Virus record (IMG/VR): IMGVR_UViG_3300021420_000084 | Span: 1 to 37,681 of that record | Strand: one strand, 5' to 3' | Source: a virus | Length of the DNA: 37,681 nt | Shown: positions 16,323-37,681 of the stretch, one piece after another | Layout of the letters: each line of letters opens with the position of its first letter | Position numbering within the stretch: the first letter of the stretch is position 1 | The notes under the pieces: generated by a model | Database searches by the model: none | What the model saw: the letters and a program-made list of their open reading frames with translations, nothing else | Told to the model about the DNA's origin: nothing | Made by a program: the position numbers and the translations under genes

Positions 16323-16534
16323 TTGATCTTCCCTGCCGCGCGTGTGGCGATCAGCCGATCACGTTGTGCGGCTCTCCTCTCGGCAGTCCAGGCGCCCGAA
16401 CTCTTCCTTCGAGGCGACGTCACTTCAGCCCCCCCCCCGATCGCGGCGCCGACAGCGGCGTAAACCGCGCCGATCTTCGACTGCGGCACGATGACGGTCA
16501 CCTTCACGACCGGCTCCTCGACCTGGTCGCTCAC
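16319..16534 (-). CDS. Small protein with a 10-G slippery tract, 71 aa
   Basis: GTG 16534 overlaps the upstream TGA. The N-terminal half (SDQVEEPVVKVTVIVPQSKI, then AVYAAVGAAIGGG) is a strand and a small hydrophobic helix. The C-terminal half is a basic helix (SPRRKSSGAWTAERRAAQRD). The two halves are joined across a run of ten G bases on the coding strand (16429-16438). With ten G the frame is fused. With nine, the first half would stop at AAGTGA and a new GTG start would overlap that stop. Either the tract toggles between one fused and two separate proteins, or it is an assembly length error. No family is recognised. Confidence 0.6.
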   Translation of the reverse strand: MSDQVEEPVVKVTVIVPQSKIGAVYAAVGAAIGGGAEVTSPRRKSSGAWTAERRAAQRDRLIATRAAGKIK

Positions 16535-17262
16535 GCTGTGACCGCAAGCATCCGATCGAGCAGCTCGAGTGCACTGGCCTGGAGCGCCACGACCGTAGGT
16601 CGGAGCGCGGCGGCCCCCGCGGCGGCCCTCGCGGCGGCCCACGCGGCGGCCCACGCGGCGTCCCACGCGGCGGCCCCCGCGGCGGCCCTCGCGGCGGCCC
16701 CCGCGGCGGCCCACGCGGCGTCCCACGCGGCGGCCCCCGCGGCGGCCCTCGCGGCGGCCCCCGCGGCGGCCCACGCGGCGGCCCACGCGGCTCGTGCTTT
16801 CGCACTTGCCGCATTCAGTGCCGTCTGCGCCGCCTTCGCGCTCTTCGAGTCAGTGATCGGTGCTGTGGCCTCGATCGCCTGAGCTTCCGCGTCGAGCTTC
16901 GCGAGACGCAGCCACGCGGGTGCGCTGACGCGGCAGTACCAGTCGAGCGCCATCCACGAGCGCTCACGCTCTTGGGCAGATGTCCCTGCGGTGTTGACGA
17001 GCCTCGGGATGTACGGCTTGAGCATCTGACGATCGGTGTCGTCCATGCCGTCGTTCCAGCCGCGCAGGAAGTCGCTGATGACCTTCGACGCGCAGGTCGG
17101 GTGGTCGCTCCACTTCTCGCCGGCGATGAAGGCCACCGCCTCCATGACGCACATCTGTCCGTCGGGCTCGTGCGCACCGTGGAGCAACGTGAGGCTGTCG
17201 AGAAACGCCTGCAGTGCCCTGCCGCGGAGAGGCTTGCTCCGTGTCGCGACCTGGGCGCTCAC
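16531..17262 (-). CDS. Protein with conserved N-terminal domain and Ala-rich tandem-repeat tail, 243 aa
   Basis: GTG 17262 overlaps the previous stop (GTGA). Residues 1-115 are a conserved-looking domain: LTLLHGAHEPDGQMCVMEAV, AGEKWSDHPTCASKVISDFL, GWNDGMDDTDRQMLKPYIPR and TSAQERERSWMALDW. I have seen this pattern (MCVMEA, WSDHP, ND, R..L.P) in phage and actinobacterial proteins without known function. The tail (~155-225) is built of AWAAAxAAA units such as RAAAGAAAWDAAW, translated from the 12/60-bp DNA repeat, and probably forms a long Ala/Trp helix. Copy number may vary. It is an early gene next to the leftward promoter. Confidence 0.72.
   Translation of the reverse strand: MSAQVATRSKPLRGRALQAFLDSLTLLHGAHEPDGQMCVMEAVAFIAGEKWSDHPTCASKVISDFLRGWNDGMDDTDRQMLKPYIPRLVNTAGTSAQERERSWMALDWYCRVSAPAWLRLAKLDAEAQAIEATAPITDSKSAKAAQTALNAASAKARAAWAAAWAAAGAAARAAAGAAAWDAAWAAAGAAARAAAGAAAWDAAWAAAWAAARAAAGAAALRPTVVALQASALELLDRMLAVTA
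16612..16795. repeat. Tandem repeat: 12-bp unit in three 60-bp copies
   Basis: The unit GCGGCGGCCCnC repeats with a higher-order period of exactly 60 bp: copies starting at 16621, 16681 and 16741 differ by only a few bases, and a partial unit precedes them. Every unit is a multiple of three, so copy changes keep the reading frame of the 243-aa protein. Confidence 0.9.
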
Positions 17263-17875: not shown

Positions 17876-18808
17876 TCAGAGTCTCAGCCCCGTCCGTTGG
17901 CGCGGGGTGCGCCGCGCGAAGGCGTCGAGCAGATCGATCGAGGCGGCATCTACGTATCGCTCGGTCATCGCGATCGTGCTGTGACCGAGCGCGCGCTGGA
18001 TCGCCCAAGGGACGACTCCGTCCTGCGCGAGCCGGGTGGCGAACGTGTGCCGAGCCTTGTGGGGATACGCGCGGATCCCGGTGGCCTGTCCGAGGCGTCG
18101 CCAGATCATGTAGATCCCGGTGGAGGAGAGAGGTCCAAAATCGCCGGCGACGCACCTGGTGCTGGTGAGGAACAGGCTCCGGCAGACGGCTCGCGGCCGA
18201 ACCTTCGAGAGGTACTGCTCGAGCTCGGCGGCGAAGGCGTCGGAGATGGGCACGCCGCGATCCTTGCGACCCTTACCCTGTCGGACGCGGACGACCCAGG
18301 CCTGGCCGGCGTCGATCAAATCATCGACGGTGAGATTCGCGATCTCCGACCGTCGGAGCCCGGTTTCGATGACGATTCGCACCAGGACGCGGTCGCGACG
18401 ACAGCGACAGGCGCTGAGGAGGAGCCTTTCTTCCTCAGCCGTGAAAACCGGCGGGCGGACCTGGGGCTGCCGCGGTCCCTTGACACGGAGGATGTCGACA
18501 GAGGTCAGCCAGCCGCGATCGATGCAATAGCTCGAGAAGCTGCGCCACACCCGGCAGTAGTCGTCGACGGTCGATGGCCGCAAGCCGTCGCAGAGGAACT
18601 CTCGTTTCAGCGACTCGAGCACGACGGGCACCAGCTGGCCAGGGTTCGTCACCTCGTGGCGCTTCCGGAAGGCGACGGATCGACCGCCGATGAGCAGGGT
18701 GCGGTACGTCTCGATGGTGGCCGGGGTGCAATTGTCAGCGCGCAGACGCCCAAGGTAGGCATCGACGGCCGCATCCCAGACGGGTGTGGGAGCGCCGATG
18801 ACTTTCAC
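17876..18808 (-). CDS. int: Tyrosine site-specific integrase
   Basis: At 310 aa from GTG 18808 it has a core-binding N-terminal SAM-like domain (DAYLGRLRADNCTPATIETY and the following helices) and the catalytic domain with all expected residues: Arg152 in ETGLRRSE, Lys in GKGRKDRG (~179-182), His250-x-x-Arg253 in YPHKARHTFATRL, His276 in LGHSTIA and Tyr285 in MTERYVDA. It is a short XerC/D-like type without an obvious arm-binding domain. It reads away from the attP, which lies about 120 bases upstream of its start. It should integrate the phage into a host tRNA-Gly gene. Confidence 0.95.
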   Translation of the reverse strand: MKVIGAPTPVWDAAVDAYLGRLRADNCTPATIETYRTLLIGGRSVAFRKRHEVTNPGQLVPVVLESLKREFLCDGLRPSTVDDYCRVWRSFSSYCIDRGWLTSVDILRVKGPRQPQVRPPVFTAEEERLLLSACRCRRDRVLVRIVIETGLRRSEIANLTVDDLIDAGQAWVVRVRQGKGRKDRGVPISDAFAAELEQYLSKVRPRAVCRSLFLTSTRCVAGDFGPLSSTGIYMIWRRLGQATGIRAYPHKARHTFATRLAQDGVVPWAIQRALGHSTIAMTERYVDAASIDLLDAFARRTPRQRTGLRL

Positions 18809-31828: not shown

Positions 31829-32253
31829 CAACCGCTCACCTGGACGACGCGCCCTTCGACGTGATGATCGACACCGGTGCGAGCGTTCTGCACATGCAGC
31901 GCCTCGATGACGCGATAGCTGACGCCGTCGACAATGAGAGTGTCGTCAGCGGTGAGCTCGATCTGCGGCGGGAGCACGACCTGGTGTGTGGTGACCAGCG
32001 TGTCGCTCTCGACCAGGTGGATCGCCTCACTCATCGGCTCGAGATAGCCAAAGACGACGTCGACGCTCGTGATCGATGGCATCGCATTGCCATAGGTGTC
32101 CTCGGCGACGTCGCCGATATGTTCGACGGTGATCTGCTTGGTGAGCAGATGCTGCCAGCCCGGACCTGGCGGCCAGAAGGTCGTCGGCGCGGCGTCGGCC
32201 TGGCCCGAGGCCTCAGCTCCTCCAGTCGCGCCCAGCTGCTGCGTGGTCGGCAT
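31828..32253 (-). CDS. Head closure (stopper) protein, 141 aa
   Basis: ATG 32253 overlaps the adaptor stop (TGATG). After a ~30-residue Ala/Gly-rich start the fold is a small beta barrel: HLLTKQITVEHIGDVAEDTY, VDVVFGYLEPMSEAIHLVES, VVLPPQIELTADDTLIVDGV and SYRVIEALHVQNARTGVDHH, ending VEGRVVQVSG. The L-x-x-D-D-x-L-I-V-D-G-x-S-Y-R-V element is typical of gp16/gpFII-type stoppers. It should close the DNA channel below the adaptor. Position between adaptor and gp10-like genes agrees. Confidence 0.82.
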   Translation of the reverse strand: MPTTQQLGATGGAEASGQADAAPTTFWPPGPGWQHLLTKQITVEHIGDVAEDTYGNAMPSITSVDVVFGYLEPMSEAIHLVESDTLVTTHQVVLPPQIELTADDTLIVDGVSYRVIEALHVQNARTGVDHHVEGRVVQVSG

Positions 32254-33149
32254 CAGGGAAGCCCACCAATGGGCGTGCTGGTGACGAGGCTGCCGACACG
32301 GTACGGTCGGAACTGCGACAAGGCGGCCTTCTCGTCGGGCGTGAGCCACGCGGGCCCGACGCCCGTGTAGGTCACCGCGTAGCCGGCGCCGATGCGCTCG
32401 CTCGTCACGCCGTCAGGGTTGGCTGTCAAGCGCGCAGCCACCGCGGCGAGGACCGTGCGGATGATCTGCGGGACGTCCTCGTCTTCCCACCCGTGCGTGT
32501 AGGTCACCGAGTACCACGTGAACGCGAGCACGTTGGGATCCGCGATGCGACCGGCTGCGTCCGCCGTCGGAAGCGGCACCACGGGGATGTTCGGGGCGAT
32601 GTCCTCGGAGTCGGTCAGCAGGCTCGCCTCGAAGCCCATGTCGAACGACTCGTCGCTGTCGCCAAAGGACGCCGTGCCCAGCTGACCCAGCACTGCCGTG
32701 ACGGCGATCACCGGACGCCGCGGCAGCTGGATGATCCCGTCCTCGTAGGAGTACAGCTCCACAGTCTCGGTGACGACCGCCAGCGGCCGGTCAATGTATT
32801 GCTCGACGATCGATTGCGCAGCGATCTGCTGCGGCGAGCCGCCGCGGCGAGGGCTGACGGTCAGCGAGGCCGAGATGCCGGCGCCGAGCTGGTTGCCGCT
32901 GCCGTCGAAGGCATCGCCGATGACCAGCCATTCGCCGTCGGTCGTCGGTGTGAAGGCGAGCGCGTACACGCCCTGAGAAACGCGCGTCGCCTGCGGTGCA
33001 CTGCCCACCGTGTAGGGCGTCGCGTTGCCGAACGGACTCACCGACGAGAGCACGACCGAAGCCGGGTCGTATTCCTGTCCAGCGGCGTTGAGGAACATGA
33101 CCTGGCCAACGGCAGGCTGGCCGACGATGGTCGCTACTGCGACTGTCAT
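32253..33149 (-). CDS. Head-tail adaptor (gp6-like) with extra N-terminal beta domain, 298 aa
   Basis: ATG 33149 overlaps the stop of the repeat protein (ATGA). The C-terminal ~180 residues hold the adaptor fold: SIVEQYIDRPLAVVTETVEL, YSYEDGIIQLPRRPVIAVTA, VTYTHGWEDEDVPQIIRTVL, AAVAARLTANPDGVTSERIG and LTPDEKAALSQFRPYRVGSL. The H-G-W/Y-x-x-E/D-x-x-P-x-x-I motif is characteristic. Residues 1-100 (QVMFLNAAGQEYDPASVVLS, GVYALAFTPTTDGEWLVIGD) are a separate Ig-like domain not usual for gp6 homologues and likely exposed at the neck. It joins portal to head-closure protein. Confidence 0.85.
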   Translation of the reverse strand: MTVAVATIVGQPAVGQVMFLNAAGQEYDPASVVLSSVSPFGNATPYTVGSAPQATRVSQGVYALAFTPTTDGEWLVIGDAFDGSGNQLGAGISASLTVSPRRGGSPQQIAAQSIVEQYIDRPLAVVTETVELYSYEDGIIQLPRRPVIAVTAVLGQLGTASFGDSDESFDMGFEASLLTDSEDIAPNIPVVPLPTADAAGRIADPNVLAFTWYSVTYTHGWEDEDVPQIIRTVLAAVAARLTANPDGVTSERIGAGYAVTYTGVGPAWLTPDEKAALSQFRPYRVGSLVTSTPIGGLP

Positions 33150-35506
33150 GACACAGGGTTCCTCCGAAGGGTCACAACCGGGAGCTCGTCCTCGATCAGA
33201 CCTGACGTGACCCTATCACCTCCCGCCGAAATGCTCACACCTGGCGCAGGACCCACGCTCATGGTCGCAGCGACGCTGCCGTTCGACGTGACGCTCGTGA
33301 GCGGCGAAGCGCCCGCAACGACAACGGCGAGCACATCGATCGGAGGTCCGACGATCGTTCCGGCGATCCCGCCCGAGGCGATCGCTGCACCACTGGCCGC
33401 GAGGAAGAAAATCGCCGCGGTCGTGGCGAAGGCTGAGCCACTTGCGCGACCCGTCCCGGTCGCAGCCACCGCTAGGAGCGCGAGTGCGGCTGCGTTTCCC
33501 GATGCCAGCCCCCGACCAGCCGACACGAGAGCGCCGAGAACAAGGGCAGAAGTCGAGCCGGAGGCGATGCCAGCACCGTTCGCGGCGACCGACAGTGCGA
33601 CTGCCGCGCTGGCAGTCCCGCTCGTCTTGGCAGCACCGGCAGCGACGACCAGCAGAGCAACGAAGGCAGCGGAGCCGGAGGCGATGGGGGCGCCATTGGC
33701 CGCGAGACCCACTGCTCCGATCGTGACGGCCGACCCGCTCGCAACGGCTGCGCCGGCGGCCGCAAGGACCATTCGCTCGACGACGACCGCTTGGCCGGTG
33801 GCGATGACCACGCCGGCGGCGGCCAAAGCCTCCAAGGCAATAACCGTCACCGCGCCGCTCGCCTTCGCCGCTCCGGCAGCTGACAGCACGCCCAAGGCCG
33901 ACTCGCTGGCTGCGCCGCTCGCCTTCGCGGAGCCGGCTGCGAGGAGAACCTCAAGCAGCGTCGCGGCGGCTGCACCCGAGGCGAGCGCTGAGCCCGCGGC
34001 CGACACGGACAGCGGACCGACGAGTGAAGCCCCACCAGAAGCCACAGCAGCGCCCGCGGCGGCCAGGACGTCCAACAATGCACGGGCGACAGCGGATCCG
34101 GCCGCTACAGCCGCTCCTGTAGCCGCCAGCGCGAGCTGAGCAGTGGCGACGATGGACCCGCTCGCGACCGCGGCGCCAGCTGCGCTCAGCGCACCGAAGG
34201 TAACGATTGCGGCCGCGCCCGAGGCCTTCGAGGATCCGTTTGCGGTGACGGTCAGCGGGAACCAGTTGACAACGCCGGAAGCGACGGCACCGCCAGCGGC
34301 CGCCAGGACGTCGATCGCGGTGGCGATCGCAGCTCCGGACGCGAGTGCCGAGCCTGAGGCTGCGAGCGCCTGCTCGGCAGTCGCCGCGGCGGTCCCGCTA
34401 GCCTTCGCGGTTCCAATGGCCAGAAGCACGTCGAGCGCCGTCTGCAGCGCCGTACCCGATGCAATCGCTGCACCGGCGGCTGCGAGCACCCCGAGATCCG
34501 TCAGAGCCGCCGCGCTGCTCGCTTTCGCTGCGCCGGCCGCGACCAGGAGTGTCGTGTCGACGACGACAGCAGCTCCGGACGCTACGGCCGCGCCGGCAGC
34601 GGCCAACACGTCGAGCGCGGTCTGACCGGCGGCACCGGAGGCGAGGGCAGCGCCGGCCGCGGTGGCACCGGTGCTCTGCCAGATCTGCAGCGCGGCGCCG
34701 CTTGCCTTCGCGGAACCGGCGGCCGTGACCAGCAGAGGACCGAAGGCGACGGCGCCGCTCGCAACTCCGCCGCCGGCAGCCGCCGAGCCGGTCATGTTCT
34801 GGGTCTGGCCGGCGGTGCCGCTCGCCACGGCTGCGCCGGCGGCAGTCTCCGACCAGGTGGTCGTGCCGCTCTTATAGCTCGCGAGGTTGAAGACGAAGCG
34901 GTTGGCCGCCGTGCTGAACGCGATGACATCCGTGTCGGCCGTCGTGCCCGTCGTCGCTGTGAGCTTGTAACCGCTCATCGTGAATTGAGCGCCGCTGGTC
35001 GATCCGTTATTGGTCAGATAGGTGACGCCGGTGTCGACGCCGGCGCCGTTGATGTTGTTCGTCCACGGGTTCTCCGTTTGCGCGACACCTGACCGAAGCG
35101 AGCCGCCGAAGACGATCGCGCGTCCCGTGCCACCATCCGTGCCCCCGTTCGTCAGCGTGATCGTGGTCGCGGTGGTGCCGGTGCCCGTTGCGCCTTGCTC
35201 ATAGACCGTTGTGCCGCTGAGCTCGAGGATCTGGCAGTCCATATAGAGACCGCTCGCCTCGTTCCACGTCGGCATCGTGTCCGACCCAACCGCGATCTTG
35301 TCCCAGATCTCCGCGACGGCGACGCCGGACGCCTGGCCTTGGCGCTTAGTCCATCCGGTCGTGCTGCCAGAGAGCGTTGTATTGACGCCGGTGCTTGCGC
35401 GCGCCGTGACGAATGCGATGAGGACATGCCCGGCGACCGCCGACGCATAGACCGGCGTTACGGTCGTGGTGCCGGTGGCGAGCGGCGAGTTGCCGACGTA
35501 GGCCAT
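33146..35506 (-). CDS. Giant tandem-repeat surface protein: 25 units of about 20 residues, 786 aa
   Basis: ATG 35506 follows the phosphoesterase stop by twelve bases. Residues 1-225 form a beta-sandwich-like domain (GHVLIAFVTARASTGVNTTL, GWTKRQG, MDCQILELSG, IVFGGSLRSG), like carbohydrate-binding or phage surface modules. Residues ~227-733 are 25 imperfect 20-residue repeats of the form [VLIKR]-A-S-G-x-A, six to eight variable residues, then L-x-V-L-A-A-A-G-A-A. The last ~50 residues are a distinct C-terminal cap. There are no Cys or enzyme motifs. A regular Gly/Ala repeat of this kind suggests a beta-solenoid or fibril. With its location among virion genes it may be a head fibre, decoration or adhesion protein. 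No family is recognised. Confidence 0.75.
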   Translation of the reverse strand: MAYVGNSPLATGTTTVTPVYASAVAGHVLIAFVTARASTGVNTTLSGSTTGWTKRQGQASGVAVAEIWDKIAVGSDTMPTWNEASGLYMDCQILELSGTTVYEQGATGTGTTATTITLTNGGTDGGTGRAIVFGGSLRSGVAQTENPWTNNINGAGVDTGVTYLTNNGSTSGAQFTMSGYKLTATTGTTADTDVIAFSTAANRFVFNLASYKSGTTTWSETAAGAAVASGTAGQTQNMTGSAAAGGGVASGAVAFGPLLVTAAGSAKASGAALQIWQSTGATAAGAALASGAAGQTALDVLAAAGAAVASGAAVVVDTTLLVAAGAAKASSAAALTDLGVLAAAGAAIASGTALQTALDVLLAIGTAKASGTAAATAEQALAASGSALASGAAIATAIDVLAAAGGAVASGVVNWFPLTVTANGSSKASGAAAIVTFGALSAAGAAVASGSIVATAQLALAATGAAVAAGSAVARALLDVLAAAGAAVASGGASLVGPLSVSAAGSALASGAAAATLLEVLLAAGSAKASGAASESALGVLSAAGAAKASGAVTVIALEALAAAGVVIATGQAVVVERMVLAAAGAAVASGSAVTIGAVGLAANGAPIASGSAAFVALLVVAAGAAKTSGTASAAVALSVAANGAGIASGSTSALVLGALVSAGRGLASGNAAALALLAVAATGTGRASGSAFATTAAIFFLAASGAAIASGGIAGTIVGPPIDVLAVVVAGASPLTSVTSNGSVAATMSVGPAPGVSISAGGDRVTSGLIEDELPVVTLRRNPVS
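33207..33219 (-). promoter_or_regulatory. Operator/stoperator-like 13-mer, site C, inside coding sequence
   Basis: An exact GTGACCCTATCAC within the last ~25 codons of the repeat protein (encoding part of DRVTSG), about 60 bases before the adaptor start. On the - strand both this copy and site A are preceded by GGAG, so they share GGAGGTGATAGGGTCAC. Being inside a gene argues against a simple promoter operator. Confidence 0.5.
33308..34828 (-). repeat. Degenerate 60-bp (20-codon) tandem repeat array
   Basis: 25 coding repeats with period 60 bp, divergent at DNA level but regular at protein level, each with an A-S-G turn and an A-A-A-G core. Units alternate between a hydrophobic and a Lys first residue in part of the array. 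The divergence indicates an old array under selection for the pattern, not a recent expansion. Confidence 0.85.
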
Positions 35507-35518
35507 CAGGCCACCGGG

Positions 35519-37681
35519 TCAGCCGAAGAAGGCTGAGATGTCCGCAGCGCTCGCCGCGCCGCCGAGATAGCCGAGTCCGTAGACACCCTCGATCGCCCGC
35601 AACACGGCGTAGTGGTTGATCAGCGTCGTCACCGCCCCCTTCCCCTGCGAGACGCTCGAGATGATCACCGTCGGGATCTGGTTCGTCGTGCCGGCATCGC
35701 CCTCATCCATGGTCACGATGACCGTGCTCGGGAAGTTGAGGAACCACGGCGAGGCGAGGATCGGGGCAAGGTTCTGTGTCAACCACGCGTCGCCCTGCTG
35801 CACCGTCCCGTCGTGCATATCGTCCGTGAGGTTCGGCGTTATCCACACGAAATCTGGAGCCGACGCACCGTCGAACGTCGAGAGCGCCGACGAGATCCCC
35901 GGATATGGGACGTCGCGACAGACCGCCTGGTTGTCCTTGAAGAACTCGAAGGGGTTGTGCTTGAGCGCATAGCCGCCGCTCGAGCCGCCTGTGTAGCACG
36001 CGCTCGGCATCGACTCCATCCAACCGACCCATGGCACTCCGGCTGCAGTGAGCTGTCCTCCGAGGTCAGTCACGCTCAGCGAGTTCGCCGCACACGAGCT
36101 GTCGGTCGTGCAGCCCTGGATGCCGCCGCTGTCGAACGCGACATAGTTCGGCTCTGACGGATGGCTCACGCCGTGGCTGTTCGTGAAGCTCACATACTTC
36201 GCTGCGAGCGAGCAGAAGTACGGGTCCGCGCTGCACGTCCCGAGGGTCGCCGCGTAGCCCTTGTTTTCTTCCATGATCACCAGGACGTGCTGCGCTCCAG
36301 GCGGTGGCGTAGCAGTCGGAGAGGGCGTAGGTGTCGGCGACGGTGTCGGTGTGGGCCCGATCGTCGGTGAGGGCGTCGCGCTCACGGTAGGCGTCGGCGT
36401 CGCGGTCGGACCAGGTGTCGGGGACGGGCACGCCGTCGCCGACGGCGTCGGTGGCAGCGTGGCTGTCGGAGTGGGAGCGACAGTCGACGTGGGCGTGGGC
36501 GCGATCGTCGGTGTCGCCGTTGCGTCAGGCGCCTCGCTGAAGTCGTCGTCACCATCGCCATCGGGGTCGAATGCCGCTGTCGGCGTGGCGGCCGCGAGGT
36601 ACGCTCCGGTCAGGGTCGCGCCGGAGCAGCTGGTCGACAGCGGTGCTGCGAGCGGCTGCAGCGGCGTTCCACCACCGCCGATCGACGTCGGTCCGTTGTT
36701 CGTGACGACCGCGAGCTCGCTGATGATCTTCTGCACCGACGCGCCCCATCCAGCGCCGCCAACGCCGGCGGTCGCGAGCGGGAAGCCCCAATCGGTCTGG
36801 AACTGCGCCGCGGTGTTCGCGTCGCCCTGCTCGACGCCGAGCGTGAACACGCTGCGCGCGCTGTCGTTCTTCACGTAGGCGCCATAGTTCTGCAGCGTCC
36901 AGGCGAGCTCGAGCGCCGCCGGCGAGAGACCAAGCGAGGCGACGTTCACGGACTGCGGGATTGCCAGGAGCGCACCCATGCTCAACGCCGGCGTCGAACC
37001 GCCCGGCGAGTAGGCGTACGAATCCTTCTTCGTCGCCGGCCAGCGAAAGCCCGGGGACGTCGGGGTGCAATCGTTGGCGCAGTCGATGTTGGTGACAAGC
37101 GCGTGTGGTGCACCTTGCTTGCCTGGTGCGATCTCGCCAGGACGGAGAAGGCCACCGAGGTATGAGAGCCCCGAGCCGCCGGCGCCACCGGTTAGACCCG
37201 CGCCGTAGATCGTCCCATACGTCTTGAAATGCCCAGCCGTCGCCGGTGTGTTCGCAACGCATCGAGCGAAGGCGCCACCCTCGTCGATGGTCTGTCCGTC
37301 CGCGTGGAGAATGGCGAAGCCGCTGTTGTGCGAGCTCGATGCAAGCACCAGGCTGCCAGGAATCGGGTCGGTGCCGAGCGTCCCGCCGGTGACGGCGCAG
37401 GTGTTGCTGTGCTGGCCACCATTCAGCTCGATCGCCGTCAACGGTGCGGTCGGGTCCTGGATCAGCGTCGCCGCATCTGTGGTGAGCGTGGCGATGGTCG
37501 GCGGTTTGACGACTCCCGTTGCGCTGTATGTGGCCGCGGTGCCGATCGGTTGGTTCCAGATCGACGTCGAGGTGAAGGGCTGCGAGTACGGGTTGCGCGT
37601 GGCGGATGGAGTCGTCACGCCGGGACCGGCGCGCAGTCCGCTCACGACGAGACCGGTGCCGAACGCCAAGCCGGCGATGAC
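35519..37681 (-). CDS. Phosphoesterase (PF04185-type) fused to an N-terminal surface domain; 5' end wraps to position 269
   Basis: With the wrapped N-terminus the protein is about 765 aa. After an N-terminal membrane segment comes a ~330-residue beta-rich domain ([55 protein letters not shown]). A Ca-binding-type loop ([16 protein letters not shown]) and a ~75-residue Pro/Thr/Ser linker follow. The C-terminal ~240 residues are a phospholipase C/acid phosphatase-type phosphoesterase: [62 protein letters not shown] and [13 protein letters not shown], with a late [11 protein letters not shown]. Such enzymes hydrolyse phosphate esters, e.g. phospholipids or wall phosphodiesters. Among virion genes it is a candidate envelope- or wall-degrading surface enzyme. 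Confidence 0.85.
37548..37681. repeat. Terminal direct repeat, right copy
   Basis: The second copy of the 134-base terminal overlap, identical to 1-134 except for T at 37555. Merging the copies gives a continuous phosphoesterase gene, so the contig should be treated as a closed circle of 37,547 bp. Confidence 0.93.

Follow-up and report, generated by a model that had tools for sequence, protein, structure and literature searches.

A 20-residue Gly/Ala repeat protein encoded near a Gp80-like gene is a putative accessory fibre of the phage virion

How phages cling to cells and surfaces is decided by their accessory fibres, and in uncultivated phages most of these fibres lack annotation. The IMG/VR record IMGVR_UViG_3300021420_000084, analysed here over its whole stretch of 37,681 nucleotides (the window), raises the question of what a long repeat protein rich in glycine and alanine might do among virion genes. 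The gene, here called P0001, encodes 786 residues on the minus strand from an ATG at 35506 down to 33146; the first-pass annotation had given these ORF coordinates correctly, and stops interrupt the plus-strand reading of 33146-35506. An N-terminal domain rich in Thr, Ser and Gly (residues 1-215; 34862-35506, minus strand; recognised by a phmmer match to locus L020, described below) is followed by 25 units of about 20 residues (residues ~220 to ~720; 33347-34849, minus strand; from the unit list and column statistics) and a C-terminal tail of about 65 residues.

Anchored on G-x-x-x-A-S-G, the units are spaced by 19-22 residues, mostly 20, and have the consensus [LV]AAAG(A/S)A(V/K/I/L)ASG(A/S/T)A. 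In unit numbering this reads L1 A2 A3 A4 G5 A6 A7 V/K8 A9 S10 G11 A12 A13, after which the sequence varies apart from L18 and V20. The glycine at position 5 is present in 25/25 units, A3, A9 and G11 in 24/25 each, and S10 in 23/25. Identity at lag 20 reaches 0.394, where shuffled sequences average 0.183 (sd 0.015; Z 13.7); the highest lag-20 value among 2000 shuffles was 0.235, and at lags 5-60 the shuffles never rose above 0.247. The 25 regular Gly/Ala units described from the letters alone are therefore borne out by both the unit list and the lag statistics. Positions 7, 9, 11 and 13 are nearly always tiny, and the alternation of tiny and large residues is fixed by position. Other familiar glycine-rich repeats do not describe this pattern: by inspection the RTX beta-roll nonapeptide GGxGxD is absent (there are 6 Asp in 502 residues), and the period is 20, which does not fit a collagen-like Gly at every third residue.

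Over the core, the units share 63% of their amino acids. At shared fourfold codons, third positions agree between units at a rate of 0.321, where unrelated codons would be expected to agree at 0.318, and Tandem Repeats Finder found no DNA repeat in the repeat region. The DNA divergence between units noted at first reading is thus even stronger than was claimed. Third positions as unlike as those of unrelated codons indicate that the units arose long ago and have been maintained by selection on the protein, and that the periodicity does not stem from recent DNA expansion.

To obtain a structural model, P0001 residues 301-510 (210 residues) were submitted to AF2 with a 13-sequence alignment. The model is all-beta (pLDDT 78.5, about 88 in the first half; pTM 0.73) and has two 8-residue strands per unit with two-residue turns through most of the segment. 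Its best match by VIA is the curli subunit CsgA (Z 20.1, 199/210 aligned, at a high rmsd of 7.8 Å), followed by RsaA (Z 14.9, 2.8 Å over 194 residues), and Foldseek matches of the repeat model were weak (PDB E of at least 0.03). AF2 folds even random perfect repeats confidently as beta-solenoids, with outward hydrophobic stacks as a warning sign (PMC11795689), and such stacks are present in the P0001 model. For diverged repeat families, including PF07012, all prediction methods agree (PMC11795689). Because the P0001 units have diverged and the AF2 bias is described for near-perfect repeats, we regard a two-sheet parallel beta-solenoid as credible, that is, plausible and unproven. The earlier suggestion of a solenoid or fibril thus gains an all-beta model closest to parallel beta-solenoids, qualified by the bias of AF2 towards that fold. 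Each unit would contribute two strands of about 8 residues, stacked around a tight Ala/Gly core to which the tiny residues at positions 7, 9, 11 and 13 of the first strand would belong, and 25 coils at 4.8 Å in a single chain would make the rod about 12 nm long. Outward position 8 is V/I/L in 17 units and K/R in 8, a mix that suggests side-to-side association, for example as a trimer. For P0001 residues 1-330, AF2 with four sequences gave a pLDDT of 36.

The same units could instead build a trimeric, intertwined fibre shaft (triple beta-spiral or beta-prism), in which the strands pair between three chains and the shaft would be longer and thinner than a solenoid; P0001 would still be an accessory fibre. 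Most phage fibres are trimers, and two short strands per unit with a turn predicted at positions 4-5 (A/N/S/T-G, the Gly invariant) would suit such an arrangement. The outward positions are largely hydrophobic and charged residues make up 4.6% of the repeat region, as expected for a further buried interface. However, the monomer model is already compact and has solenoid matches, and we judge the intertwined shaft rather unlikely, while giving it more weight than any other alternative to the single-chain rod.

Where else does the repeat occur? Whole-protein searches with P0001 (PHROGs, Pfam at E 1, NCBIfam, PDB, and tblastn in phages) found no relatives, nor did P0001 peptide patterns in IMG/VR, and literature searches returned no description of a 20-residue G-x-A-x-A-x-G repeat. 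The repeat was not recognised at first reading and is likewise missing from every library that we searched, although it is widespread in viral contigs. When IMG/VR was scanned with a DNA pattern of three G-x-A-x-A-x-G cores 20 codons apart, at least 119 stretches matched. Among the matches listed, lag 20 was the best period among lags 13-29 in 102/119 pattern ORFs, a figure in which the pattern itself imposes period 20 over three units and only extension beyond three units is independent evidence. Chains of 7-37 units were found in 60 ORFs from 58 loci, and the median ORF of the family has 86% of its spacings at exactly 20 residues, again among the matches listed. A control scan with 18-residue spacing gave at least 121 matches, which were collagen, 9-residue GAASATGxx repeats and other types rather than members of the present family; collagen-like ORFs numbered 0/119 with the 20-residue pattern versus 22/121 in the control (matches listed). 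The control loci (L127-L246) thereby show another phage repeat that is common, nine residues long and written GAASATGxx or GAATASGxx. In bacterial genomes, 96 matches were nearly all other repeats, and four resemble the family (L331, L292, L252 and L255).

Members of the family are defined by several units that keep a 20-residue register and have small residues at unit positions 5, 7, 9 and 11, and P0001 has this pattern. A profile of the P0001 units matches L101 (3e-19), L091, L004, L020 and L046, and shuffled ORFs gave nothing below 0.8. A match of this profile to PkwA (E 0.011) was taken as chance, as were NDM beta-lactamase matches of P0007. In L020 the N-terminal domain of P0001 (phmmer E 5.9e-8) is fused to the same 20-residue repeat, and similar N-terminal domains occur in L072 and L010 by profile grouping, both being themselves part of the profile. 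No LamG/concanavalin-like lectin was matched in the P0001 N-terminal domain in Pfam or by PDB sequence. Several repeat proteins carry a basic C-terminal motif of spaced Arg and Val (for example PRYRVASSGRRFSAATARNFKVSA; L331:5878-7854, L292:2334-3026 and L354:7416-8156), which is possibly a docking tail; P0001 has no clear copy of it.

The window places P0001 in a structural block. Its ends share an exact 126-bp direct repeat (9-134 = 37556-37681), which makes it probable that the assembly is complete and either circular or terminally redundant. Across the junction the minus-strand order is large terminase, portal, scaffold, major capsid protein (1505-2668; phrog_10, E 3e-47), a 109-aa ORF (1171-1500), a 228-aa Gp80-family protein that is a putative fibre anchor (485-1171; PF23140, 45.5 bits against a gathering threshold of 27, E 1.2e-11), a PF04185 phosphoesterase with a hydrophobic N-terminus and a Pro/Thr-rich linker (35519-37681, its frame crossing the junction to a TTG at about 269), and P0001. 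Directly downstream follows the head-tail adaptor (32253-33149, minus strand; phrog_442, E 6e-15), whose start overlaps the P0001 stop, and then head closure, a gp10-like ORF (by inspection), major tail protein, tape measure and tail proteins. A phosphoesterase before the gene and an adaptor after it had been read from the sequence, and the PF04185 and phrog_442 matches confirm both. Part of the phosphoesterase matches the minor tail protein family phrog_17388, and L020 has no phosphoesterase between its Gp80-like and repeat genes. The 109-aa ORF has an L020 homologue in the same relative place (35% identity). Elsewhere, an ORF at 17876-18808 (minus strand) resembles a tyrosine recombinase/integrase by eye, which suggests a temperate phage.

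The Gp80-family gene offers a link to function. The search used a Gp80 profile from which all 58 counted repeat loci had been kept out; some of its members were chosen as neighbours of repeat genes, so that it may favour that subtype. A Gp80-like gene was found in 24/58 repeat loci versus 1/120 control loci of similar size among the matches listed (Fisher p 7.8e-13, somewhat optimistic because the repeat loci include near-duplicate contigs such as L050 and L056). The Gp80-like gene lies upstream of the repeat gene, on the same strand and within 4.5 kb, in 22 of these 24. It was also present in 12/61 further pattern loci with shorter repeat chains (matches listed); the association is frequent, not universal. 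In L020 the two genes are four bases apart, with the Gp80-like gene upstream, and in the annotated phages C72C1 and ctjtQ328 a 20-residue repeat gene directly follows a Gp80-like gene. Gp34 of mycobacteriophage Gadjet (20-residue repeats) lies directly before gp35. A Foldseek BFVD list, independent of the linkage count, includes Gordonia phage Trine gp27 (22-residue repeats); gp26, its neighbour on the upstream side, has a Gp80-like score (E 4e-5). P0001 itself is not of the Gp80 family, having no PF23140 match and no Pfam match of any kind at E 1. Rhodopsin matches of the window's Gp80-like protein were taken as chance. Octadecabacter virus DB2 gp11 (L356:7065-8591), three genes after a Gp80-like gene, has 22-residue repeats (HALTAxSVEAASE...), and its annotation as 'ribonuclease E' is probably wrong.

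Pfam names PF23140 as Gp80, podophage GP4 fiber I protein, and family member L331:4655-5161 matches PDB 8jou_a (E 2.3e-6); a PDB search with BcepMigl gp57 returned no GP4 chain. Consistent with the Pfam name, we take 8jou to be the GP4 tail. The GP4 structure paper, as cited in PMC11784390, is Zheng et al. 2023, J Mol Biol 435:168258. The orthologues of Gp80 form part of the virion: one is present as 10 chains in cryo-EM entry 8jou, phiM5_17 is annotated 'detected in phage particle proteome' and JC1 gp53 was found in purified virions (PMC9144972). JC1 gp54, which adjoins the Gp80 orthologue, is absent from the virion mass-spectrometry list (PMC9144972).

We consider it reasonably probable that P0001 is an accessory virion fibre of the neck or tail, in which a beta rod is held by the Gp80-like protein and carries a surface-binding terminal domain. 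With the anchor holding the rod on the neck or tail, the N-terminal domain (or, in the opposite orientation, the other end) would face the host surface and bind it reversibly. A fibre cassette would accordingly comprise a Gp80-like anchor, a repeat rod and an exchangeable terminal domain. The first-pass annotation had proposed a neck or head fibre from gene placement; linkage to Gp80-like genes across unrelated phages is the strongest functional evidence and speaks for a fibre, but the place of the gene varies between phages. The adaptor is directly downstream of the repeat gene in L032, L062, L096 and L091 (phrog_442) and nearby in L018 (phrog_477), while the repeat gene sits in a tail-fibre/lysis region in the phage of L020 and between the connector and major tail protein genes in that of L072 (gene roles partly by inspection in both).

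Alternatively, P0001 could be a capsid decoration or surface coat, with repeats that lie flat along the head or neck and do not protrude. The gene does lie between the major capsid and adaptor genes, and PHROGs classes the Gp80-like group as 'head protein'; however, Pfam calls Gp80 the podophage GP4 fiber I, and related repeat genes occur in tail-fibre regions of other phages, which makes a coat improbable. Least probable is a largely disordered, low-complexity linker born of expansion and composition bias: 60% of the residues in the repeat region are Ala, Gly or Ser, AF2 over-predicts solenoids for repeats (PMC11795689) and sequence searches with P0001 give nothing, but synonymous sites are saturated with protein positions held, and a fixed tiny/large alternation in a 20-residue register across unrelated phages would be unexpected.

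Beyond the single gene, the 20-residue Gly/Ala repeat may, as a more tentative proposal that we hold to be possible without favouring it, represent a widespread class of curli-like solenoid rods of 7-37 coils, docked by Gp80 and carrying exchangeable binding domains in podophages and siphophages. If so, repeat rods would be modular, length-adjustable spacers across both groups. The repeat is abundant in viral contigs and absent from the Pfam, PHROGs and NCBIfam libraries searched, and the low-complexity filter of BLAST can mask such repeats. Through the link to Gp80/fiber I, a large class of genes labelled 'hypothetical' acquires a function open to testing, and fibre cassettes can be sought by a simple rule, an anchor gene plus a repeat gene.

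The closest counterparts of P0001 are proteins of uncultivated IMG/VR phages, for example L020, L072, L091, L101 and L084, and of L331 in a Rhodocyclaceae MAG, which share its register and core; in L091 the downstream order (adaptor, then tail genes) also resembles the P0001 locus. The relatives differ in loop sequences, unit number (7-37) and N-terminal domains, a few of which close with what by eye is a LamG-like 'ANPWKF' motif. In CsgA (PDB 8c50), two strands per ~20-residue unit form two stacked sheets, as predicted for P0001; unlike CsgA, P0001 has no curlin PF07012 match (Pfam, E 1) and no signal peptide by eye, and its gene lies among phage structural genes. Another repeat type in the window, in a 243-aa ORF at 16531-17262 (minus strand), consists of 12-bp tandem units (array 16606-16791) encoding Ala-rich tetrapeptides AAWA/AAGA/AARA with Trp, Gly or Arg; in type it resembles the repeat of mycobacteriophage Tweety gp54, which has a 12-bp unit encoding AA + G/W/Q + S/Y (PMC2884959). 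GP4 Gp80 fiber I (PF23140, PDB 8jou) is the genomic partner of P0001, a protein of ~140 residues without 20-residue repeats. Trine gp27 (BFVD A0A2Z4Q9M1) and Gadjet gp34 have repeats beside a Gp80-like gene, like P0001, in the tail-gene region and annotated as hypothetical only; for the Trine repeat, homology to P0001 is not detectable by profile. The neck fibre of phage A-1(L), gp80-gp81-gp82, is attached to the neck and bears a distal carbohydrate-binding module (PMC10966104). We liken it to P0001 by its working only, and the name of A-1(L) gp80 has no connection with that of GP4 Gp80: the A-1(L) fibre is built of beads of separate trimers, whereas P0001 is one repeat chain.
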